Shown: positions 14,168 to 49,027 of the stretch, piece by piece | Position numbering within the stretch: position 1 is the stretch's first letter | Layout of the letters: each line of letters opens with the position of its first letter | The notes under the pieces: generated by a model | What the model was told of the DNA's origin: nothing | Database searches by the model: none | The model's input: only the letters and a program-made list of their open reading frames with translations | Made by a program: the position numbers and the translations under genes | Assembly: GCA_035623075.1 (NCBI GenBank) | Contig: DASPUC010000052.1 | Location: forward strand, 62,001-126,000 | Length of the DNA: 64,000 nt | Direction: 5' to 3' | Source: Nitrospiraceae bacterium | Lineage (GTDB): Bacteria > Nitrospirota > Nitrospiria > Nitrospirales > Nitrospiraceae

Positions 14168-15451
14168 GTGAAGATTCTTGTTATTGGTAGCGGCGGACGC
14201 GAGCATGCCATCGTGTGGAAACTTGCCCAAAGCCCACGAGCGCCCCAACTGTATTGCGCACCGGGCAACGCCGGGATCGAGACGCTGGCCACCTGCGTCC
14301 CTCTCAAAGCCGACGACATCGCCGGCCTCAAACGGTTCGTTCAAGAAGAGGGGATCGATCTGACCGTGGTCGGGCCGGAAATGCCGCTCGCACTCGGGAT
14401 TGCCGACGAATTCCGAAAGGCGAAGTTGAAGATCTTCGCGCCGACGCGCCATGCGGCCCGGATCGAAGCGAGCAAGAGCTTTTCCAAGGATGTCATGGTG
14501 ACCGCCAAGATTCCGACGGCACGCGCCAAGAGTTTCGACAAGATGGCGGATGCGCTGGCGTACCTGGATCTGCACGAGCTCCCGGTCGTGATCAAGGCTG
14601 ACGGGCTTGCGCAGGGCAAAGGGGTCATCATCGCGACGACGCGTGAAGAGGCCAAGCAGGCCGTCGCGGATTCGATGGAACGAGCGGTGTTCGGCCAGGC
14701 TGGACAACGTGTGTTGATTGAGCAGTTTCTTGATGGGGAAGAACTGACGATCATGGCTTTCACCGATGGCGAGACCGTCGTACCCATGTTGCCTGCACAG
14801 GATCACAAACGGGTCGGTGACAGGGACACTGGTTTGAACACTGGCGGCATGGGGTCTTACTGTCCAGCTCCGCTCGGCACTCGTGCCCTCTGCGAGATGG
14901 TTACGTGCGAGGTGTTGCGGCCCATCGTGGATGCACTCGCGCGACTGGGCTGTCCGTTTCAAGGTGTCCTGTATGCCGGGCTGATGATCGTGAAGGGCGT
15001 TCCCTACGTGTTGGAATTCAACGCGCGGATGGGCGACCCCGAAACGCAGGTCGTGCTGCCTTTATTGAAGACGGACTTGGTTGATGTGATCGAAGCCGTA
15101 GTCGATCATCGACTCGATCAACTCACGGTGGACTGGCAGGACGAGTCGGCTGTGTGTGTGGTCATGACATCGAAGGGCTACCCCGGACCCTATCAGCAGG
15201 GATTCGTGATTCATGGCTTGCCGAGTGCGGAAGGGGCGACAGGGATGGTGTTTCACGCCGGAACCGCGCGCCGGGGAACTGACATTGTTACAGCCGGCGG
15301 GCGGGTGTTGGGCGTAACCGGACGTGGCAAGACCATCGTTGCTGCACAGCAAGAAGCGTATCGCCTTGTGAAAAGCATCACGTTCGATGGCTGCCATTAC
15401 CGAACCGACATCGCGCATCGAGCCCTTCGCCCAAGAGACGATCGGTATTGA
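14168..15451 (+). CDS. purD: phosphoribosylamine-glycine ligase
   Basis: The 427-residue ATP-grasp enzyme starts with GTG at 14168 (MKILVIGSGGREHAIVWKL). It shows the GARS blocks PGNAGIE, DLTVVGPE, the ATP-grasp lysine segment VVIKADGLAQGKGV, and FNARMGDPETQVVLPLL. It joins glycine to phosphoribosylamine, the second step of purine synthesis. An out-of-frame ATG immediately precedes the GTG and is followed at once by a stop. It is probably cotranscribed with purH and the downstream TsaC-like gene. Confidence 0.97.
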   Translation: MKILVIGSGGREHAIVWKLAQSPRAPQLYCAPGNAGIETLATCVPLKADDIAGLKRFVQEEGIDLTVVGPEMPLALGIADEFRKAKLKIFAPTRHAARIEASKSFSKDVMVTAKIPTARAKSFDKMADALAYLDLHELPVVIKADGLAQGKGVIIATTREEAKQAVADSMERAVFGQAGQRVLIEQFLDGEELTIMAFTDGETVVPMLPAQDHKRVGDRDTGLNTGGMGSYCPAPLGTRALCEMVTCEVLRPIVDALARLGCPFQGVLYAGLMIVKGVPYVLEFNARMGDPETQVVLPLLKTDLVDVIEAVVDHRLDQLTVDWQDESAVCVVMTSKGYPGPYQQGFVIHGLPSAEGATGMVFHAGTARRGTDIVTAGGRVLGVTGRGKTIVAAQQEAYRLVKSITFDGCHYRTDIAHRALRPRDDRY

Positions 15452-15468
15452 CTGGCTTGCATCTCTCC

Positions 15469-16125
15469 ATGGCTGCAATCGTCCGTTATGATCCACCTGA
15501 ATTCACGGCTCTGTGCGCCCGCGTCCGAACTATCCTTCGACGAGGTGGGATCGTCGCAATCCCCACGGAAACTTCTTACGGGTTAGGTGTCGATCCCTTC
15601 GATTCCGCCGCACTCAGCCGCCTTACGAAAGTCAAAGGCCGTGCGGAGCACAAGCCGATCCTTCTCCTCATCGGTGCAGACGACCAACTGTATCCTCTTG
15701 TCGAATCAATTCCTCCGGCAGCGACCGCCCTGATGGAGGCATTCTGGCCAGGCCCTCTGACAATTGTATTCCCCGCACGGGCCGACCTGCATACACTTAT
15801 CACGGCGGGAACAGGGACGGTTGGAGTGCGCTGGACATCGTTGACTGCTCTCGCAGACATTCTTCGAGTGGTGGGGCCGGTTACAGGAACGAGTGCCAAC
15901 CGATCGGGGGAGAGCGCGGCTCGAACTGCTCAAGAGGTAGAGCAAACCTTTGGTGACGAGATCGATTTAATTATCGACGCCGGATTGACGCCGGGTGGCT
16001 TGCCATCGACCGTCATTCAGGTCGAGGGGCGGCCACAGATTGTGCGCGAAGGAACGATCTCGCGCGCCCGTATCCGAGAGGCGTTGTGCGAGAGAGGATT
16101 TTTCCTCAACGAAGGGCAGATGTGA
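15469..16125 (+). CDS. L-threonylcarbamoyladenylate synthase (TsaC/Sua5/YrdC family)
   Basis: From ATG 15469 the protein has 218 residues, the length of the YrdC domain alone without the Sua5 C-terminal domain. Visible blocks are the substrate loop IPTETSYGLGVDP, the basic motif KGRAEHKPILLL, FWPGPLTIVFPA and the nucleotide-site motif GTSANRSGE. The enzyme makes threonylcarbamoyl-AMP for tRNA t6A, the substrate used by TsaD, whose gene is at 47874-48932. It starts 18 bases after purD and is likely in the same transcript. Confidence 0.93.
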   Translation: MAAIVRYDPPEFTALCARVRTILRRGGIVAIPTETSYGLGVDPFDSAALSRLTKVKGRAEHKPILLLIGADDQLYPLVESIPPAATALMEAFWPGPLTIVFPARADLHTLITAGTGTVGVRWTSLTALADILRVVGPVTGTSANRSGESAARTAQEVEQTFGDEIDLIIDAGLTPGGLPSTVIQVEGRPQIVREGTISRARIREALCERGFFLNEGQM

Positions 16126-25545: not shown

Positions 25546-26496
25546 TTAACGAGGGTCAGGAAAGTCTCCGTTTTGGTCGGAGACGACGTGCTGCGCAGCA
25601 TGATAGGAACTACGGACCAATGGACCTGATTCGACGTGCATGAAACCGAGAGCTAGCCCCTCCTCTTTTAACATGGCAAATTCGGAGGGATCATAGAAGC
25701 GTACGACGGGCAGGTGGTCTTTGGTCGGCTGGAGGTATTGTCCAATGGTCATGATATCGCAGTCGATGGAACGCAGATCGTGCATAACTTCGCGGGCCTC
25801 ATCCACTGTTTCGCCCATCCCCAGAATCAGCCCCGATTTCGTCGTCATCCCCAGCTCCTTCGCGTGCCGCAACAGCTCAATAGAACGCCGATACTTTCCT
25901 TGAGGGCGAAGTGTCGAAAACAGCCGCGGGACAGTTTCGATGTTATGGTTCAGGATATCTGGCTTCTCGGCGCATACGGATGCGAGCGCCGTGGTGTTCC
26001 CTTCAAAATCCGGGATAAGCACTTCGATCGTGCAGGTCGGAATCAACCGTCTGATGTGGGTTATCGTTCCGGCAAAGATGGCGGCCCCGCCATCCGCCAA
26101 TTCATCCCGGTTCACGGAGGTGATAACCGCATGGCGTAAACCCAATGCCCGAACGGCTTCGGCGACACGGAGCGGTTCTTCATGATCCACAGCCAGCGGA
26201 CGGCCTGTGGTGACCGAGCAATAGTGACATCGCCTCGTGCAGATGTTCCCAAGAATCAGAAAGGTCGCGGTGCGGGCGTTCCAACATTCCCAGACGTTGG
26301 GGCAACGAGCTTCCTCGCAGATGGTATGGAGTTTGAGCTGTTCCATCGTGTGCTTAATGTCGAGATAGTCAGGGCCGGTTTTTGCATGAACTTTGAACCA
26401 GGGCGGTAATCGTGGCCGGCCAATGGCTGAATGTCCACGGCTATTCGCGGATTCAGATGGCAAGGAACGAACCCGGTCGATCGGTATGAAGTTCAT
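25546..26496 (-). CDS. lipA: lipoyl synthase
   Basis: Starting at ATG 26496 (MNFIPIDRV), which overlaps the E2 stop as ATGA, the protein has 316 residues. It has both LipA clusters: CEEARCPNVWEC (C-x4-C-x5-C) for the auxiliary [4Fe-4S] and CTRRCHYC (C-x3-C-x2-C) for the radical-SAM cluster. It has the downstream TSVNRDELADGGA and GMGETVDEA motifs. It inserts sulfur into octanoyl groups to make lipoyl-E2, so its place next to the E2 gene is functional coupling. No lipB was seen in the window. Confidence 0.97.
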   Translation of the reverse strand: MNFIPIDRVRSLPSESANSRGHSAIGRPRLPPWFKVHAKTGPDYLDIKHTMEQLKLHTICEEARCPNVWECWNARTATFLILGNICTRRCHYCSVTTGRPLAVDHEEPLRVAEAVRALGLRHAVITSVNRDELADGGAAIFAGTITHIRRLIPTCTIEVLIPDFEGNTTALASVCAEKPDILNHNIETVPRLFSTLRPQGKYRRSIELLRHAKELGMTTKSGLILGMGETVDEAREVMHDLRSIDCDIMTIGQYLQPTKDHLPVVRFYDPSEFAMLKEEGLALGFMHVESGPLVRSSYHAAQHVVSDQNGDFPDPR

Positions 26497-27692
26497 GGAG
26501 TCGTTCCTCGTTGAATAAGCTCTTGAGGGTGCTCCAGACACCACTTGAAGGTCTTCAAGAATTCCGCGCCTTGTAATCCATCTAAGGCTCGGTGATCGCA
26601 TGACAACGTGACCTTCATGCGTCGGCCAGGTACTATGGTGCCTTTCCGTACGACTGGCACATCTTGGATGGCGCCCACAGCGATTGAGGCTGCCTGGGGC
26701 GGAATAAGCACAGCGATAAAGTTTTCCACATCGAACATTCCAAGGTTGGAGATGGAAAATGTGGCGCCAGTGTACTCATCGGGGCGCAACCGTTTCTGTT
26801 TGGCCCGTTCGATTAGTGTTCGGGATTCAGTCGAGATGTCGTGGAGTGACTTACAGCCGCAGTCGCGAATAACCGGCGTGATGAGGCCATCTTCCATGCC
26901 AACCGCCACACCGATATCGATGCTTGCATGCCGCCTAATCGCGTCACCGGTGTAAGACACGTTGATCTCAGGATGGCGACTGAGGGCCAGAGCCGCAGTT
27001 TTGATCAACAGATCGGTAACGGATGGATGGTTCTGACGGCTCTGTTTGCTCTGATCGCGGAATCGCTCAGCCGGATTCATATCGATGTCGATGGTGAGGT
27101 AGAAGTGCGGTACCGGTGCCTTGCTTTGACTGGTGGCCCGGGCAATGGCTTTTCGCATCTGGCTCAACGGGTGGTCTGTTCCCGGAGGCATGACCTGCGT
27201 CACAGGTACCGCCTTCACGACATCGTCTTCGACAATCCGCCCGCCAGGGCCAGTGCCTGCGATGGTGGAAAGGTCGATCCCTCGTTCGGCGGCAAGAGCC
27301 TTCGCACGAGGCGAGGCGATGGGATGAACACCCTCTGCACGGGTCGGCGGAGCCACCACCGGGCCCGCACCGGGCGCCGTGCTTGCTTTTGTGCTGCTTC
27401 CTGCGGCCGGCGTAGCGGCGATGGTGTCGGTCAATGCCGCGGTGATGTCTTCATCTGGCTCGCCGATGACGCCGATCAGCGTTCCCGAGGGGACGGTTTC
27501 CCCGTTCTGCACCAGGATCTTGCGCAGGACGCCGGATGCGAACGCCTCGAGGTCCATGACGGCTTTGTCGGTTTCGATTTCAGCGAGGACCTCCCCTGCC
27601 TGAACCTGGTCGCCTTCGCGTTTCTTCCAGGCCAGCAGGACACCTTCTTCCATCGTATCGCTGAGTTTGGGCATGACGACGCGGCTAGCCAT
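26493..27692 (-). CDS. pdhC: pyruvate dehydrogenase E2, dihydrolipoamide acetyltransferase
   Basis: About 399 residues from ATG 27692, with GAGGAAA upstream; an ATG at 27704 is possible. The order is: a single lipoyl domain with lipoyl Lys in ETDKAVMDLEA, a peripheral-subunit-binding domain (IASPRAKALAAERGIDLSTIAGTG, residues about 120-155), and a catalytic domain ending in the active site DHRALDGLQGAEF. It transfers acetyl groups to CoA. It overlaps the preceding unknown gene by eight bases. Confidence 0.93.
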   Translation of the reverse strand: MASRVVMPKLSDTMEEGVLLAWKKREGDQVQAGEVLAEIETDKAVMDLEAFASGVLRKILVQNGETVPSGTLIGVIGEPDEDITAALTDTIAATPAAGSSTKASTAPGAGPVVAPPTRAEGVHPIASPRAKALAAERGIDLSTIAGTGPGGRIVEDDVVKAVPVTQVMPPGTDHPLSQMRKAIARATSQSKAPVPHFYLTIDIDMNPAERFRDQSKQSRQNHPSVTDLLIKTAALALSRHPEINVSYTGDAIRRHASIDIGVAVGMEDGLITPVIRDCGCKSLHDISTESRTLIERAKQKRLRPDEYTGATFSISNLGMFDVENFIAVLIPPQAASIAVGAIQDVPVVRKGTIVPGRRMKVTLSCDHRALDGLQGAEFLKTFKWCLEHPQELIQRGTTP

Positions 27693-31668: not shown

Positions 31669-32196
31669 GGGATCCTCCCTCGTCTCGCATACGGTCCGTA
31701 CAAGCACGATAAGCGAATTCAAGAAGTATTTCTTTCATCATAAGCGATTGAGGCAGCGAAAGAAAATGGGCCGGTTGGACCAAGGTACCATAGCCCAACT
31801 GGGCCAACGGGGCAGCGCCACTCCGATAAAACAAGGCGATCGAGCCGTCGCAGATTCGTGGCGAGGCCAACCGGGGAAAGGGTCAAGATGATCCACTCAG
31901 ATAAATCGGACTTGTCTCACGTGGGGCCCGTTCAGGACAACACAGGCGTGCTGTGATGATGAGTATGGCACCCCCTCGCCACAGGTACCGATGGAGGCGG
32001 GCCGACTCTCCCAGCGCAGACCGGTGTTCAAGCGCGACCTGACTATCCTTCTTTCTGCTGAGCAGCGGGAATCGCTTAATCGGAACATCACAGGGGGAAA
32101 TGGAAGCACTGTCTGACGCAAACGGAGGAGAGGAATTTTTTAGCAGCAGCATCGCAGTGTATACTAAAAGAAGGTTCGCCATCGCCCTGTCTGAGG
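31669..32196. other. 528-base intergenic region
   Basis: I see no credible protein, tRNA or repeat here on either strand. It separates mrp (minus) from putA (plus), so it should hold promoters for both. The only sites I can point to are a TATACT (32160-32165), 32 bases before the putA start, and GC-rich inverted repeats around 31767-31815. Short open frames have no ribosome site and look random. Confidence 0.5.
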
Positions 32197-35166
32197 ATGC
32201 CCATGCACCCAGGTGGTCCTTCCCTGGAACCAGAAATCCGTCGCATTGGTGAGCAACTTGCCCGTCTTTCAGCCGGTCAGGCACCGAGCATGTTCAACCT
32301 CCGCTGGTGGTCGCAAGCGGCCATCAACTTGGCTATGCATGACAGCGCCTTCAAGACACAGCTGTTTCGCTTCATCGACGTATTACCTTCGGTCGTCGAC
32401 GATGCGCGAGTCGTGACCCTCGCGCAAGAGTATTTGGGAAATGTGAGTGCGCAAATCTTCGGGGCGCAATGGGGGCTCCATGCGATGGCGGCGACGCAGC
32501 TTGGCGCTCGGCTCACCGGAAAAGCGATCAGGACCCAAGTTGAACAGATGGCCAGGAGTTTTATTGCCGGCGGCACAGTCGCTGAAGCGGAACCGGTGTT
32601 GGCTGAGCTGTGGACGCAGGGACGGTCCTGGTCCGTCGATCTCCTGGGAGAAGCCACCATCAGTGACCGCGAAGGCGACCGGTATCGGGATCGATGCCTG
32701 AAGGCCTTGCACGAACTGACCCAGATTGCCACGGAATGGCCGTCCGTCCCGTTGCTGGAACGGGATCATCTTGGTCTTATCCCGCGCGTTCAGCTTTCGC
32801 TCAAGATTTCGGCGCTGTCGCCACATCTGGACCCGATCGACCCCGAGGGCAGCTATCGGTCCGTCGTAGCACGGTTACATCCCATCCTCGACCTGGCGAT
32901 GAAGCTCCCGGCTTCCCTGATCTTCGACATGGAACAGGCTGAGACGAAGGATCTGCTGATAGAAATTTTTACCAGGCTGTTTTCAGAACCGGCCTATCGG
33001 ACATGTCCGCACGTGGGGCTTGCGCTTCAGGCGTACCATCGAGAGACACAGCGGGACGTCGATCATCTCCTTACGTGGGTCCGTCATCGGTCGGCTCCGA
33101 TCACCATGCGCTTGGTGAAAGGCGCTTACTGGGATTCGGATATCATTCGCTACCGGCAACGAGGATGGTCGATTCCCCTCTTCGAGCAAAAAGTCGAGAC
33201 GGATACCAACTATGAAACGCTCACCCAGACCCTGCTAACCCACACGACGATTATCCGACCCGCTTTCGGTACGCATAACCTCCGGACGCTGGCCCACATC
33301 GAGGCTACGGCCAGATCACTCAAGCTGTCTCCGGAAACCTGGGAGTATCAGATGATCTTTGGAATGGCCGAGCCCTTTCAGCAGGCCATCACTCAACTGG
33401 GACGCCGCTTGCGACTCTATGCCCCGATCGGAGAACTTCTCCCCGGAATGGCCTACCTCGTCCGACGCTTGCTTGAAAACACGTCGAATGAATCGTTTCT
33501 CCGCAAGGAGTATGTGGAATCAGAATCTTTGACGACGTTGCTCGCTCCTCCTTCATCAGGAAGCGCCGCGCCAGCTAAAACAGCCTCCTCACGAGGCGCC
33601 GAGAATGTCGGATTTTACAATGAGCCGACCAGCAACTTTGCAGAGGCCGGCCGCCGGGTTGCAATGCAGACCGCCCTCGCGACAGTCCGAGCGCACCTGG
33701 GCAAGAAGTGGGCATCTTCAATCGGAAGCGGCCAGCCATCCGGTCCGGTCATCGAGTCTCGCAACCCGAACCGGCCGGATGAGGCAATCGGGCACGTGAC
33801 AACTGCGCGGCCCGATGAGATCGACCAAGCTGTACGAAGTGCGGTCACAGGCTGGCAGCGTTGGCGCGAGACAGCTGCGGAGGATCGTGTCAACATTCTG
33901 CGCGGAGCCGCTTCGCTCATGCGACAGCGCCGCGACGAGCTGGCCGCCTGGGAGATTTTAGAATGCGGTAAACCCTGGCGGGAAGCGGACGCTGATCTGG
34001 CAGAGGCCATCGATTTTCTGGAGTTCTATGCCGCGGAATGGCAACGACTCGCCATCCCGGCACGGTTGGGATCCGAGCCGGGGGAACTCAATCACCGTTC
34101 GTATCACCCGCGAGGGGTGACGGCGGTCATCGCCCCGTGGAATTTTCCACTGGCCATTCCGACCGGCATGGTCTCGGCAGCTCTCGTGACGGGTAATCCC
34201 GTCGTCTTTAAACCCTCTGAGCGGTCCTCCGTCTTGGGGCAGATCCTGACGGACATCCTTCGCCAGGCCGGGGTACCGGATGAAGCGTTGTGCTGTGTGG
34301 CCGGTGGGCCGGAGATCGGGCGGCTATTGGTGCAGCACTCTGACGTGGCCACGATCGCATTTACCGGCTCGAAGGACGTGGGCCTGAACATCATGAGAGA
34401 TGCAAGTGCCGTTGCGCCAGGACAGATTATGATCAAGCGTGTCATAGCCGAAATGGGAGGCAAGAACGCAATCATCGTCGATGAGACGGCAGATCTCGAC
34501 GAAGCCATCACCGGTATCGTCACCTCCTTTACTGGCTATGCCGGCCAAAAGTGTTCCGCCTGTTCTCGGGCGATTGTGCATGCCTCAATCTATGACCTAT
34601 TTCTTGATCGGCTGAAAGAAGCAGTCCTGAGCCTCATCATCGGGAACCCCGAAGAACCGGGCACGCAGGTCGGACCGGTGATCGACAGCCGCGCCCAGAC
34701 GAAAATCACCGAACACATCGCGATGGGAAAACAGGATGCCCGCTTGGTCGTCGAACGGGCTGTACCTGGTCCCGGATGGTATGTGGGGCCGACAGTATTT
34801 GCCGATGTCAAGCCGACGCATCGGCTCGCGCAGGAAGAAATCTTCGGACCTGTGCTCGCAGTGATGAAAGCCGAATCGTTTCAGGAGGCCTTGACGCTGG
34901 CCAACGCAACGTCCTATGCGCTCACCGGCGGCGTCTATTCACGAAGCCCAGAGAATTTAGCCCTCGCACAGCAGCAGTTCGATGTGGGAAATCTGTATCT
35001 CAACCGGCCGATAACCGGTGCACTCGTCGGTCGACAGCCTTTTGGTGGACATCGCTTTTCCGGAGTCGGATCAAAGGCGGGGGGACAGGACTATCTGATG
35101 CAATTCACGGTCAGTCGAATCATTAGCGAAAATACGCTGCGCAGGGGCTTCGCGCCAATCGAATGA
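32197..35166 (+). CDS. putA: bifunctional proline dehydrogenase / pyrroline-5-carboxylate dehydrogenase
   Basis: The 989-residue protein joins a PRODH barrel (about 70-440; LSLKISALSPHLDP; MRLVKGAYWDSDI; YAPIGELLPGMAYLVRRLLENTSNESF) to an aldehyde dehydrogenase domain (about 500-985) with PWNFPLAIPTGM, Glu in AEMGGKNAI and catalytic Cys in GQKCSACS. There is no N-terminal ribbon-helix-helix, so it does not repress its own gene; this is the short PutA type. It oxidises proline to glutamate through the quinone pool. ATG at 32197 or 32203. The 3' end overlaps the convergent gene by 96 bases. Confidence 0.95.
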   Translation: MPMHPGGPSLEPEIRRIGEQLARLSAGQAPSMFNLRWWSQAAINLAMHDSAFKTQLFRFIDVLPSVVDDARVVTLAQEYLGNVSAQIFGAQWGLHAMAATQLGARLTGKAIRTQVEQMARSFIAGGTVAEAEPVLAELWTQGRSWSVDLLGEATISDREGDRYRDRCLKALHELTQIATEWPSVPLLERDHLGLIPRVQLSLKISALSPHLDPIDPEGSYRSVVARLHPILDLAMKLPASLIFDMEQAETKDLLIEIFTRLFSEPAYRTCPHVGLALQAYHRETQRDVDHLLTWVRHRSAPITMRLVKGAYWDSDIIRYRQRGWSIPLFEQKVETDTNYETLTQTLLTHTTIIRPAFGTHNLRTLAHIEATARSLKLSPETWEYQMIFGMAEPFQQAITQLGRRLRLYAPIGELLPGMAYLVRRLLENTSNESFLRKEYVESESLTTLLAPPSSGSAAPAKTASSRGAENVGFYNEPTSNFAEAGRRVAMQTALATVRAHLGKKWASSIGSGQPSGPVIESRNPNRPDEAIGHVTTARPDEIDQAVRSAVTGWQRWRETAAEDRVNILRGAASLMRQRRDELAAWEILECGKPWREADADLAEAIDFLEFYAAEWQRLAIPARLGSEPGELNHRSYHPRGVTAVIAPWNFPLAIPTGMVSAALVTGNPVVFKPSERSSVLGQILTDILRQAGVPDEALCCVAGGPEIGRLLVQHSDVATIAFTGSKDVGLNIMRDASAVAPGQIMIKRVIAEMGGKNAIIVDETADLDEAITGIVTSFTGYAGQKCSACSRAIVHASIYDLFLDRLKEAVLSLIIGNPEEPGTQVGPVIDSRAQTKITEHIAMGKQDARLVVERAVPGPGWYVGPTVFADVKPTHRLAQEEIFGPVLAVMKAESFQEALTLANATSYALTGGVYSRSPENLALAQQQFDVGNLYLNRPITGALVGRQPFGGHRFSGVGSKAGGQDYLMQFTVSRIISENTLRRGFAPIE

Positions 35167-35961
35167 TGTCTCCGCCGGCTTCACCTCGTACGATTCCAAC
35201 TCTTCCGTAATTTCCGTCACCACTCCACGGTCCTGGACTAAGGAAATCTCCTGACGCTCCGTATATTTGATCAGTCCCACCCCTTTCGCAAACCAGGCTG
35301 TCATGACGTCGGTTCCCGTCGCGGTCTTGTCAGCTCCAGACAGATGAATCCGCATCGTCATCTGGGCTTCAACCTTGACCGCCTCCTTGAACGTTCCGGC
35401 CGGAACGGTGACGGACTCCACCCCCGCGATCGTCGCATGGCCTCGGGCATCAGCTTTCTCGTTCGTACCGTCCCGATCCATGTCGGTGCCGAAATCTAAC
35501 CCTGAACGGTCGAACTGTTGGAAGGATGTCCCGACCTTCATCGGAAACCGGATAATTTGATAGGGAATCAGCTGCTTCTCGAGGGGAGTTCCCGGCTCAG
35601 ACCCGTAATAAACAATTCCCACAATGTCGCGCCGATAGAAGCTATCTGATGGTCCGTGATTCCCAGGGTTGGAATCATGGAAGACTGTAACTTTTAAGCC
35701 CTTGATCGATTTTGTTCCAGTCACAGAAGACACGTTACTGAATACCTTCAAGTCGATTGTTTGGAGAGGACCCTCAGAGATTTGGCCACGATATGTCCAC
35801 CGATTGCCCACTTCGTCGGGAAAATATTCTTCCGAATGGGCGATGATCCCCGTCTCTTCGGCATGGAGTACGGAAAGCGGTGCGACGCCCCCGAAACCAA
35901 GCAGGAATCCGGCCATGACGATACAGCGGACGGCAACCGAGTTTACGGGCATACACATCAT
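35071..35961 (-). CDS. exported protein of unknown function, overlaps putA 3' end
   Basis: The 296-residue protein has a signal peptide (MAGFLLGFGGVAPLSVLHAEE). A beta-rich body follows (YFPDEVGNRWTYRG; VSSVTGTKSIKGLKVTVFHD; VTVPAGTFKEAVKVEA; WFAKGVGLIKYTER). The pattern YFP-x-x-GN-W-Y and a later 'AGTFKEAVKVE' resembles other exported bacterial domains that describe a stored or secreted product, but I cannot name it. The last 30 residues or so after SYEV lie antisense to putA and look like read-through. Confidence 0.8.
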   Translation of the reverse strand: MMCMPVNSVAVRCIVMAGFLLGFGGVAPLSVLHAEETGIIAHSEEYFPDEVGNRWTYRGQISEGPLQTIDLKVFSNVSSVTGTKSIKGLKVTVFHDSNPGNHGPSDSFYRRDIVGIVYYGSEPGTPLEKQLIPYQIIRFPMKVGTSFQQFDRSGLDFGTDMDRDGTNEKADARGHATIAGVESVTVPAGTFKEAVKVEAQMTMRIHLSGADKTATGTDVMTAWFAKGVGLIKYTERQEISLVQDRGVVTEITEELESYEVKPAETSFDWREAPAQRIFANDSTDRELHQIVLSPRL

Positions 35962-36134
35962 CCAAAGAGTGGGCTGACGGTATCACAGGCGTCGCTAGGG
36001 CGGCAAGTAACGCTCTGAGGATCACCCCACACTCGAAGAGCGTGAGACTTGCCTTGGGAGAACGTCCTGACCATAATGGCAACCCTATGCCCTCACAACG
36101 GCAATCAGTTCGGCCTTCAAGCCGACGGGCACCC

Positions 36135-36863
36135 ATGCATCAGCGCGCGTCGGCGGTCCTTGTGACCGGTGCATCTGGAGGAATCGGGCGAGCTATCAGC
36201 GTGGCGTTCGCGTCGAGAGGTTGGTATGTCGGCGTACATTATTTTCAGAGCAAGGCGGCGGCCGAAAGCACACGACAGGCCGTCCTGAGAGCGGGAGGGA
36301 CGGGCGATCTTTACCAAGCCGACATTCGACAGAAAAACGATGTTCAACTGATGATGGATGTATATCGCCGAACTGCAAGGAAACACAATGTATTTGTGTG
36401 CAATGCTGGTGTTGGGTCAGGCGAGCTTCTCATCCGCCAAAAGGAAGAAGACTGGACCCAGGTCATGGCAACGAATCTCACCGGGACATTTCATTGCCTC
36501 TGCGCCATGGCCGAAGTACTCATCGAGCAAGGCGGGGGAGCCATCATTGTCATCGGTTCATATGCGGGCCTGCATGGGAGCCCCGGCCAAGCTGCCTATG
36601 CTACATCGAAGGCGGGGCTCATCGGCTTGATAAAAACCGCTGCTCATGAATGGGGACCCTATAACGTGCGAGTAAATCTTGTGCTACCTGGGTGGCAAAA
36701 CACGAGCCTCGCTGGAGAGGCCATGCCTGGGCCTGATGGATTGACCGATCACCTACTGGGACGATCCCCTGCCCTTTCGGAAGTGGCCAAGACGGTCGTT
36801 CATCTGGCGGAACTGTCTGATGTGTCGGGACAGATCTGGAATTGTGATAGCCGAGAATTGTGA
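36135..36863 (+). CDS. short-chain dehydrogenase/reductase
   Basis: A classical SDR of about 242 residues from ATG 36135; in-frame ATG 36087 and GTG 36042 would lengthen it, and no ribosome site decides. The NAD(P) motif is VTGASGGIGRAI, the strand-4 motif NAGVGS, and the catalytic Ser-Tyr-Lys are in VIGSYAGLHGSPGQAAYATSKAG. It resembles FabG-type 3-oxoacyl-ACP reductases. Its stop TGA shares one base with the bioD ATG, so the two are translationally coupled, which may point to a role in making the biotin precursor. Confidence 0.9.
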   Translation: MHQRASAVLVTGASGGIGRAISVAFASRGWYVGVHYFQSKAAAESTRQAVLRAGGTGDLYQADIRQKNDVQLMMDVYRRTARKHNVFVCNAGVGSGELLIRQKEEDWTQVMATNLTGTFHCLCAMAEVLIEQGGGAIIVIGSYAGLHGSPGQAAYATSKAGLIGLIKTAAHEWGPYNVRVNLVLPGWQNTSLAGEAMPGPDGLTDHLLGRSPALSEVAKTVVHLAELSDVSGQIWNCDSREL

Positions 36864-46158: not shown

Positions 46159-47850
46159 TTAGGCGTGAGAAGCAATGGCGCTACCCTCTTCGGACTGCTG
46201 GGCAGAGACTGGGGAGATGTTCGACCCCAATCTCTCCAGCGCTTGTTCCAGATAGTGGATGAGCGGGTGAAGGGTCTCCGGTTGAAGGGCTGAGATTCCA
46301 ATCGCACGATACCGACGGCAGAGAAACTGCGCATGATCGCCCGGGATGCGGTCGCATTTGTTGAAGGCTAGCACCTGAGGAACTTGCTCGAGGTTCAAAT
46401 CCTGCAGAACCGCTTCGACGGCGACGATTTGGCTCTCGAGGTCGGCAGCGCTGGCGTCGACGACATGGAGGAGTATATCGGCCTCTCGCAACTCTTCCAA
46501 TGTCGTCCGAAAGGCACCGAGCAGGTCTTTGGGAAGGTCGCGGATAAATCCGACCGTGTCGGTGATGATCACCTCCTGATCATGCGGGAATCGTAAGCGT
46601 CGGCTCGTCGTATCCAACGTTTCAAAGACCCGGTCATCTGCCGCGACCTGGCTCTTCGTCAACGCGTTCAGTAAGGTTGACTTGCCAGCGTTCGTGTATC
46701 CGACAATCGAAACGACCGGCATCCCGTGCCGAGCACGACGCGCACGCCGCTGGTTCTGATGGCGAGCAAACATCGTCAGGTCGCGCTCAAGGTGGCTGAT
46801 GCGCTCTCTGATTCGGCGGCGATCAGTTTCTAGCTTTGTCTCTCCCGGACCTCTCGTGCCGATACCGCCTCCAAGTCGAGACAGACTCGATCCATGCCCG
46901 GAAAGACGTGGTAGCAAATAGCGAAGTTGGGCGAGTTCCACTTGGACCTTCCCTTCGCGACTGTGTGCGCGCCTTGCGAAAATATCGAGAATCAATTGAG
47001 TACGGTCTATGACTTTGACGTCGGTGAATTCTGCAATTGCCCTTGCCTGGGCCGGAGCGAGGTCTTGATCGAAAATCAACAGATCGGCCCCCTTCTGCAG
47101 CGCTAGCATGAGAACATCTTTGAGTTTTCCGCTGCCAACGAGAAAGCGCTGATGACCGGCTTGGGTTCGCTGAACAATTCGATCGACTACCGAAATGTCT
47201 GCGGACGTTGCCAACTCAGCGAGTTCAGTCAGTCGATCATCTTGAGTCGATCGGCTGTGGGGAGAAGCGCTGATGAGAATGGCGGTTTCCTGGTGACCTG
47301 ACACATCATGTTGTGTGCTCTGCCGCTGAAACTCCGATTCAAGCTCCAGCATGAAGGATTGGAACTCAATCGGACAATGATGAACCAGCATGGGGCTCAA
47401 CACCTTGAGGAGTTGCCCCTGGGGGTTGGGAGGCAGTAAATGGGCGAGAGAGAGCGATCCCGGCTCGCCCTCTGGAGTGACCGCCAAGGCACCGATCACG
47501 TCAAATCGGAGTAAGGCCAGCATCGTGATGTCTTCTTGGCTCAGGGGTTGGCCGTGGAGCTGAGTTCGAATGAGTCGGAGCCCTCGCAAAGAGCGGGAGC
47601 TCGCTCGATATTTGGCCAAAGTCGCAGGGCTAGGACCTGCGTCGGCTCCTACCAACACATCCTGGATGGTTCCGCGACGGGCGATCACCAATCCGATCGG
47701 TCGACGCAGATCATGACTCAGCTGAGCGAGAAGTTTGGCAATTTCCGGCGAGAGAACTTGGTCAACGGGGACACGCCGTCGATAGAGGCGATCCAGTGCG
47801 GTGAGCTGGGCGCTTCGGAGGCCTGCGACGTGTCCATGAACTTGTGGAAT
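46159..47850 (-). CDS. hflX: GTPase HflX, apparent ATT start
   Basis: HflX is a ribosome-binding GTPase that splits stalled or heat-damaged ribosomes. The protein has the HflX N-domain, the glycine-rich linker GGGIGTRGPGETKLE and the G domain (VGYTNAGKST, DTVGFIRDLP, NKCD). The first canonical starts in frame (TTG 47691, GTG 47688) would remove about 53 residues that match family sequence: QVHGHVAGL, LYRRRVP, VLSPEIAKLLAQLSHDLRR. The frame opens after TGA at 47856-47854. The only early candidate is ATT at 47850, with AAGGGG eight bases upstream. From there it has 563 residues. A base error at the start is the main alternative. Confidence 0.88.
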   Translation of the reverse strand: MPQVHGHVAGLRSAQLTALDRLYRRRVPVDQVLSPEIAKLLAQLSHDLRRPIGLVIARRGTIQDVLVGADAGPSPATLAKYRASSRSLRGLRLIRTQLHGQPLSQEDITMLALLRFDVIGALAVTPEGEPGSLSLAHLLPPNPQGQLLKVLSPMLVHHCPIEFQSFMLELESEFQRQSTQHDVSGHQETAILISASPHSRSTQDDRLTELAELATSADISVVDRIVQRTQAGHQRFLVGSGKLKDVLMLALQKGADLLIFDQDLAPAQARAIAEFTDVKVIDRTQLILDIFARRAHSREGKVQVELAQLRYLLPRLSGHGSSLSRLGGGIGTRGPGETKLETDRRRIRERISHLERDLTMFARHQNQRRARRARHGMPVVSIVGYTNAGKSTLLNALTKSQVAADDRVFETLDTTSRRLRFPHDQEVIITDTVGFIRDLPKDLLGAFRTTLEELREADILLHVVDASAADLESQIVAVEAVLQDLNLEQVPQVLAFNKCDRIPGDHAQFLCRRYRAIGISALQPETLHPLIHYLEQALERLGSNISPVSAQQSEEGSAIASHA

Positions 47851-47873
47851 CGGTCAATCCCCTTATTTACTAC

Positions 47874-48932
47874 CTAAGTGGTTAAAGCGTGCACCGCCAG
47901 GCATGCGTTGGCTTCCATGTCGAGTGCAGCACGTTTCCCCCTGAGTAAGGCCTGCCGACCTGCGGCAGCAATCATGGCGGCGTTATCCGTACAATAGGAC
48001 AACGGGGGCAGGCTCAGACGGATGCCACTTGTGCTGGCCCGACGCTGGAGGAGCGAGCGCAACCTCGTATTGGCAGAGACGCCTCCGACAACCGCGAGAG
48101 CCGCTACCCCGTATGCCTTGACCGCAGCAAACGCCTTGTCGACGAGCACAGTGACAATAGCCTCCTGGTAACCGGCCGCTAGGTCGGGAGCTTGAGCATC
48201 GCGCTGGCTCTGGTCCATCTGTTGAAGTTTATAGAGAAGCGCCGTTTTGAGACCACTGAAACTAAAATCCAAACTCTCCTTCCTCAAATACGAGCGGGGA
48301 AACAGAATTGCCGTAGCACTGCCGCTTTGTGCAAGGCGATCAATTGCCGGCCCCCCGGGGTATTCGAGTCCGAGCATTTGAGCGCCCTTGTCGAACGCTT
48401 CCCCGGCCGCATCGTCTCTGGTACATCCCAAGAGCGGGCAACCGCCATCAAGCTGCATCAGATACAGGTGTGAATGGCCTCCGGATACGACCAACACCAC
48501 GCACGGGACCGGAAATGTTGGTTCTTGCAGCCAGGCAGAGGAAATATGCCCTTCCAAGTGACTGACTCCGACCATCGGAACGTTCAAGGCATACGAGAGT
48601 GCTTTGGCATAGTTTACTCCGACGATGAGGGATCCCGCGAGTCCCGGTCCTTGAGTCACGGCTAGCCCCGTTAAGTCCGACCATTGGACCCCCGCTTCCC
48701 GCATCGCTTGACTGGCGACACCCTCGATGGTCTCGATGTGGGTCCGAGACGAGAGCTCAGGGACTACGCCGCCGAACGGTTGGTGAACGGCGTGTTGGGA
48801 ACTGATGACATTGGAAACAACCGCTCCATCGGCGTTCAGGACCGCGGCGGATGTTTCGTCACACGACGTCTCCAGCCCAAGTAGCGGCCCCGGTGTCCAT
48901 ACCGCCGTTGGCTCTGAGTTTGATCCAATCAT
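47874..48932 (-). CDS. tsaD: tRNA N6-adenosine threonylcarbamoyltransferase
   Basis: About 352 residues from ATG 48932; longer frames would start inside the clpC terminator. The ASKHA fold is clear: LGLETSCDETSAAVL, FGGVVPELSSRTHIE, the metal-binding HxxxH in VSHLEGH, VLVVSGGHSHLYL, and VVGGVSANTRLR. It transfers the threonylcarbamoyl group made by TsaC (15469-16125) to tRNA A37. TsaB and TsaE were not seen. The hflX frame follows within about 24 bases. Confidence 0.96.
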   Translation of the reverse strand: MIGSNSEPTAVWTPGPLLGLETSCDETSAAVLNADGAVVSNVISSQHAVHQPFGGVVPELSSRTHIETIEGVASQAMREAGVQWSDLTGLAVTQGPGLAGSLIVGVNYAKALSYALNVPMVGVSHLEGHISSAWLQEPTFPVPCVVLVVSGGHSHLYLMQLDGGCPLLGCTRDDAAGEAFDKGAQMLGLEYPGGPAIDRLAQSGSATAILFPRSYLRKESLDFSFSGLKTALLYKLQQMDQSQRDAQAPDLAAGYQEAIVTVLVDKAFAAVKAYGVAALAVVGGVSANTRLRSLLQRRASTSGIRLSLPPLSYCTDNAAMIAAAGRQALLRGKRAALDMEANACLAVHALTT

Positions 48933-48987
48933 AAACTTGTATGATGTCTCTAAGGAACGCCTCACGCCAATCGGCATCTCATGGGGC

Positions 48988-49027
48988 AAAAACAGTACGA
49001 CCCCTGCGGTCCTGACCACAGGGGTCG
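48988..49027 (-). terminator. intrinsic terminator of clpC
   Basis: A perfect 9-bp inverted repeat, CGACCCCTG (48998-49006) and CAGGGGTCG (49019-49027), forms a hairpin. On the minus strand it is followed by five T (48992-48988). It sits 49 bases after the clpC stop. Confidence 0.8.

Follow-up and report, generated by a model that had tools for sequence, protein, structure and literature searches.

The hflX gene of a Nitrospiraceae bacterium probably starts at an AUU codon that is kept as a weak start across its phylum

To our knowledge, well-documented non-canonical start codons are very few in bacteria, and that of infC is the main one. Where the start codon differs from ATG, GTG and TTG, initiation complexes are destabilised by the initiation factor IF3, which also regulates the AUU-type start of its own gene and represses Streptomyces sigR, whose start is GTC (PMC5472188). 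In S. aureus, cvfC1 starts with AUU, and both ccpN and infC with AUA, in combination with extended Shine-Dalgarno (SD) sequences (PMC13009471). An AUU start was also proposed for the lepA genes of B. burgdorferi and B. licheniformis (PMC1780047). The GTPase HflX splits 70S ribosomes (PMC4770234) and rescues stalled ribosomes in heat shock, in which the E. coli hflX transcript goes up about fivefold; the freed 30S subunits are bound by IF3, which blocks their reassociation (PMC9067457).

Here we analysed hflX in a stretch of 64,000 nucleotides from a Nitrospiraceae bacterium (contig DASPUC010000052.1, positions 62,001 to 126,000; hereafter the window). Our joint reading, to which we assign a probability of about 0.86, is that this hflX starts with AUU, and that the weak codon has been selected phylum-wide, most likely for a low output tuned by IF3. 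The gene resembles infC in its codon class, strong SD, wide conservation and role as a translation-factor gene. However, HflX does not belong to the initiation factors, and no discrimination of start codons is known for it; IF3 would here control a gene other than its own, instead of acting by autocontrol. Similar to hflX, sigR of Streptomyces has a conserved non-canonical start, which keeps a stress factor low under the control of IF3 (PMC5472188), but it differs in codon, gene and phylum, and was established by experiment, whereas the hflX start rests on sequence comparison. The genes cvfC1 (AUU) and ccpN (AUA) of S. aureus share the conserved weak codons and strong SDs, with a lower output there (PMC13009471); they are conserved in staphylococci or, for ccpN, from S. 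aureus to B. subtilis, compared to hflX through a phylum. The AUU start of E. coli pcnB, a different gene, limits its expression (cited in PMC1780047). The lepA proposal likewise concerns AUU in the gene of a translational GTPase and was based on sequence only, but at the level of single species, and the passage on it reports no conserved pattern. In the literature searched, which left most subscription journals outside, neither a non-canonical hflX start nor such starts in Nitrospira were reported. Weak start codons that limit expression or tune it through IF3 are thus already known, and what is new here is the gene, hflX, and the unusually broad conservation.

The hflX coding region lies on the minus strand (46159-47850) and consists of 563 codons followed by a stop at 46161-46159. 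Its product scores 443 bits with TIGR03156 (cutoff, 217), which identifies it as HflX, and contains PF13167, PF16360 and PF01926, representing the GTPase and the HflX N-terminal and middle domains. The 5' codons read TGA CCG ATT CCA CAA GTT CAT GGA, where the putative AUU start (47850-47848), at which an initiator Met is expected, follows two codons after an in-frame TGA (47856-47854) that rules out any start further upstream in this frame. From this TGA down to TTG 47691-47689 there is no ATG, GTG or TTG in frame, which the initial annotation had pointed out and our re-reading of the frame bore out. The TTG is separated from the ATT by 53 open codons (IPQVHGHVAGLRSAQLTALDRLYRRRVPVDQVLSPEIAKLL...), and the next in-frame canonical codon is GTG 47688-47686. 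Several other long open reading frames of the window, some of which are possibly not genes, have their first canonical start at codon 32-58; in those at 25549-26775, 15283-16122, 35919-36860 and 32080-35163, it lies 39-58 codons past the upstream stop. A run of 53 codons devoid of a canonical start is by itself not rare, and it is conservation that lifts the hflX case above chance.

To follow this codon among relatives, we searched 175 genomes of the window's family and 396 of the phylum, in addition to selected further families. The hflX 5' end was then compared across 181 loci, which represent 37 GTDB families of a single phylum, with three additional loci from the outgroup family f14. The window's genome is the sole representative of its genus in this comparison, and the control genomes of the family search gave zero loci. 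The codon homologous to the window's ATT is ATT in 115 loci, ATC in 42, ATA in 11, ATG in one and another codon in 12. The comparison suggested in the initial annotation, ATG or ATT in relatives, thus revealed ATT, ATC or ATA (collectively AUH) nearly everywhere (168/181). Within the window's family, counted together with a “Nitrospirota bacterium” relative of 62% identity (L005), from which the phylum was taken to be Nitrospirota, all 115 loci have either ATT (86) or ATC (29), and the ATA cases all lie outside it. In an assembly of 58 contigs, a single wrong base from sequencing or assembly would suffice to remove an ATG, but this explanation is scarcely credible given that the same codon type is found in 167 other loci, some of them in one-contig genomes. 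A tblastn search of plasmids with the N-terminal extension gave no match. Among 24 HflX loci on viral contigs, the single long form with a 5' end (L234) has an ATG that precedes the aligned position by one codon.

The remaining loci are informative. In families f7, f10 and f12, which belong to the same class, the aligned position holds neither an AUH nor a canonical codon, and the apparent start is an ACG one codon later in five of five loci (L140, L206, L207, L212 and L224), where the SD pairing, of -8.5 to -11.6 kcal/mol, ends 7 nt before the ACG. The weak codon is therefore kept among the relatives, either as AUH or, in these three families, as ACG. In L225 an ATC is found one codon later, with an SD of -12.5 kcal/mol. 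Canonical codons occupy the aligned position in L136 (ATG) and L155 (TTG). An ATG two codons past this position is probably the start in L226, and may be so in L157, which was counted as ATC. Three ambiguous loci (L204, L221 and L229) were left out of the start counts. In the outgroup family f14, all four loci carry a canonical codon exactly at the aligned position (ATG, ATG, ATG and GTG), which independently indicates that the aligned codon is the start.

The putative AUU start is preceded by the SD sequence UAAGGGG (47865-47859, minus strand). As noted initially and confirmed here, the stretch TAAGGGGAT (47865-47857) agrees with TAAGGAGGT at seven of nine positions, leaving 8 nt between the last G of AAGGGG and ATT 47850. 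Because the 3' end of the 16S rRNA was searched for in the window's assembly and not found, the anti-SD was assumed to be the usual CCTCC for all pairing energies. The predicted pairing amounts to -7.3 kcal/mol for ATT 47850, compared to -2.6 for TTG 47691 and -3.3 for GTG 47688, so that hflX combines the lack of a usable canonical start with an SD well spaced to a weak codon. The median energy is -7.7 kcal/mol for the stretches preceding the 168 AUH codons versus -3.1 for those preceding 671 in-frame Ile codons inside the gene, although related sequences, which are not independent, inflate all counts, and the p-values of this comparison and of the third-base comparison below are not exact. 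Within positions -24 to -1 of the 168 loci, conservation resides mainly at -8 to -12, corresponding to the SD, in addition to a lesser signal at -1/-2.

The segment downstream of the putative start is under protein-level selection, and the upstream DNA is not: the median pN/pS is 0.31 over codons 2-53 (1215 close pairs), compared to 0.99 at positions -60 to -16. These codons (47692-47847) would be lost if translation began at TTG 47691 or at GTG 47688, leaving the 53 codons untranslated or a relic. The two downstream codons are the first picks of a standard gene finder, and the catalytic core of HflX does not begin until about residue 190; nevertheless, a start there is very improbable, since codons 2-53 are selected, neither codon has a good SD in front of it, and the first downstream canonical codon of the relatives is scattered from residue 3 to residue 113. 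Residue 2 of the 168 AUH loci is Pro in 126, Ala in 18, Ser in 15, Thr and Val in one each, and another residue in seven; it permits removal of the initiator Met in 161 of them, against a background of 39% at residues 3-40.

The Ile codon might instead be internal, with ribosomes entering upstream through a frameshift or read-through from tsaD, which is just 23 nt away, or at an in-frame start, such as the canonical codons present between the upstream stop and the aligned codon in 55 of 151 loci. We consider this highly improbable, because the other 96 loci, including the window, have no such codon, and stops occur one or two codons before the start in several genomes. Moreover, the upstream sequence is unconserved except for the SD and the weaker -1/-2 signal and lacks protein-level selection, and AUH is kept in families with no detected upstream tsaD. 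Altogether, conservation, SD placement, selection on the N-terminus, the nature of residue 2 and the ATG/GTG codons of the outgroup support the AUU initiation proposed in the initial annotation, and make a sequencing error, a downstream start or read-in from tsaD unlikely. The start codon of hflX is almost certainly the AUU at 47850.

The weakness of the start seems to be selected as well. On a quick FastTree tree built from the 190 residues after the start, with the start codon itself excluded, the third base of AUH changed at least 17 times, and changes from AUH to a canonical codon numbered at least three. Only one of 169 starts has G as its third base and thus reads AUG, whereas the fourfold site of the Pro codon that follows carries G in 18 of 126 cases. 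If position 1 is read by the initiator, there is no coding reason against AUG, and the shortage of G suggests selection for a weak hflX start. The ACG group, which changed the codon but not its class, suggests the same direction. The phylum-wide weakness of the start, together with its replacement by ACG in one group, speaks for selection on a low or IF3-tuned level of HflX.

Two genes served as controls. The parallel with the non-AUG start of infC, drawn at the outset, holds in this phylum, as infC (loci L175-L203 and L267-L292) starts mostly with AUC or AUA: in most relatives examined we found ATC after AGAGGTG, with ATA in AT-rich families, and in family f2 and part of f7 there are ATG candidates, indicating an apparent switch to ATG. 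By comparison, of 27 loci of era, which also encodes a ribosomal GTPase, 19 have ATG and one has GTG at the aligned start, and in the remaining seven an ATG or GTG lies a few codons upstream. Judged by this one control gene, non-canonical starts are not general in these genomes. Co-variation of the infC and hflX start types, which would support control by IF3, was not found across the lineages: f2 combines ATG-type candidates for infC with an hflX start that is mostly AUU, and f14 has AUC in infC and ATG or GTG in hflX.

We propose that AUU 47850 would be positioned by UAAGGGG and read by the initiator tRNA, such that the protein begins with Met-Pro. The weak codon would be ancient and maintained by selection throughout the phylum, as AUU, AUC or AUA and as ACG in one group, and the strong SD would keep initiation possible in spite of it. 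IF3 would reject the weak codon and hold the HflX level low; a shortage of free IF3 relative to 30S subunits would raise HflX output, and the amount of a ribosome-splitting GTPase would thereby be tied to initiation capacity. Feedback of HflX-freed 30S subunits on HflX synthesis is a conjecture. The comparison itself establishes the position and identity of the codon, its conservation and the SD. Actual initiation, low output and control by IF3 are steps that we infer beyond it, with moderate confidence, and a response of hflX output to IF3 is reasonably probable.

A purpose-built IF3-HflX loop is a more tentative proposal, because the two start types do not co-vary and plain low expression also fits. 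The same reserve applies to a phylum-wide circuit of IF3 and HflX, in which both mRNAs would carry IF3-rejected starts behind strong SDs; this arrangement is possible but doubtful. If it were true, a loss of free IF3 would raise IF3 and HflX together and reset the pool of free subunits. It is also conceivable, though not the reading we favour, that the AUU/AUH start only keeps HflX scarce and provides no specific IF3 feedback, in the manner of E. coli pcnB. This would agree with the expression-limiting AUU of that gene, with S. aureus reporters in which AUU or AUA yields ~10% of the AUG output in poor medium (PMC13009471), and with the lack of co-variation. However, IF3 generally represses such codons (PMC5472188), and some response to IF3 would therefore be expected even where no dedicated loop exists.

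The gene upstream of hflX is tsaD (47874-49019, minus strand; TIGR03723, 407 bits), which ends 23 nt before the AUU, and the two genes are likely in one operon. In the loci of the window's order, which make up 133 of the 181, it precedes hflX, usually at a distance of no more than ~100 nt. The tsaD-hflX pair (window 46159-49019) was not detected in the remaining loci studied from this phylum. There is no support for coupling to tsaD being responsible for the weak start, as AUH is also present where tsaD was not found upstream.

The HflX core of the window's protein spans residues 190-537 and is preceded by an N-terminal extension of ~187 residues, located ahead of the known HflX domains. In these relatives, gene prediction limited to ATG, GTG and TTG must misplace most hflX starts, and the misplaced starts would cut or lengthen this extension differently in each genome. 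The extension (window 47290-47850) has no Pfam match, yet it is kept across the phylum with a GLK/GLR...LYRRRVP motif.
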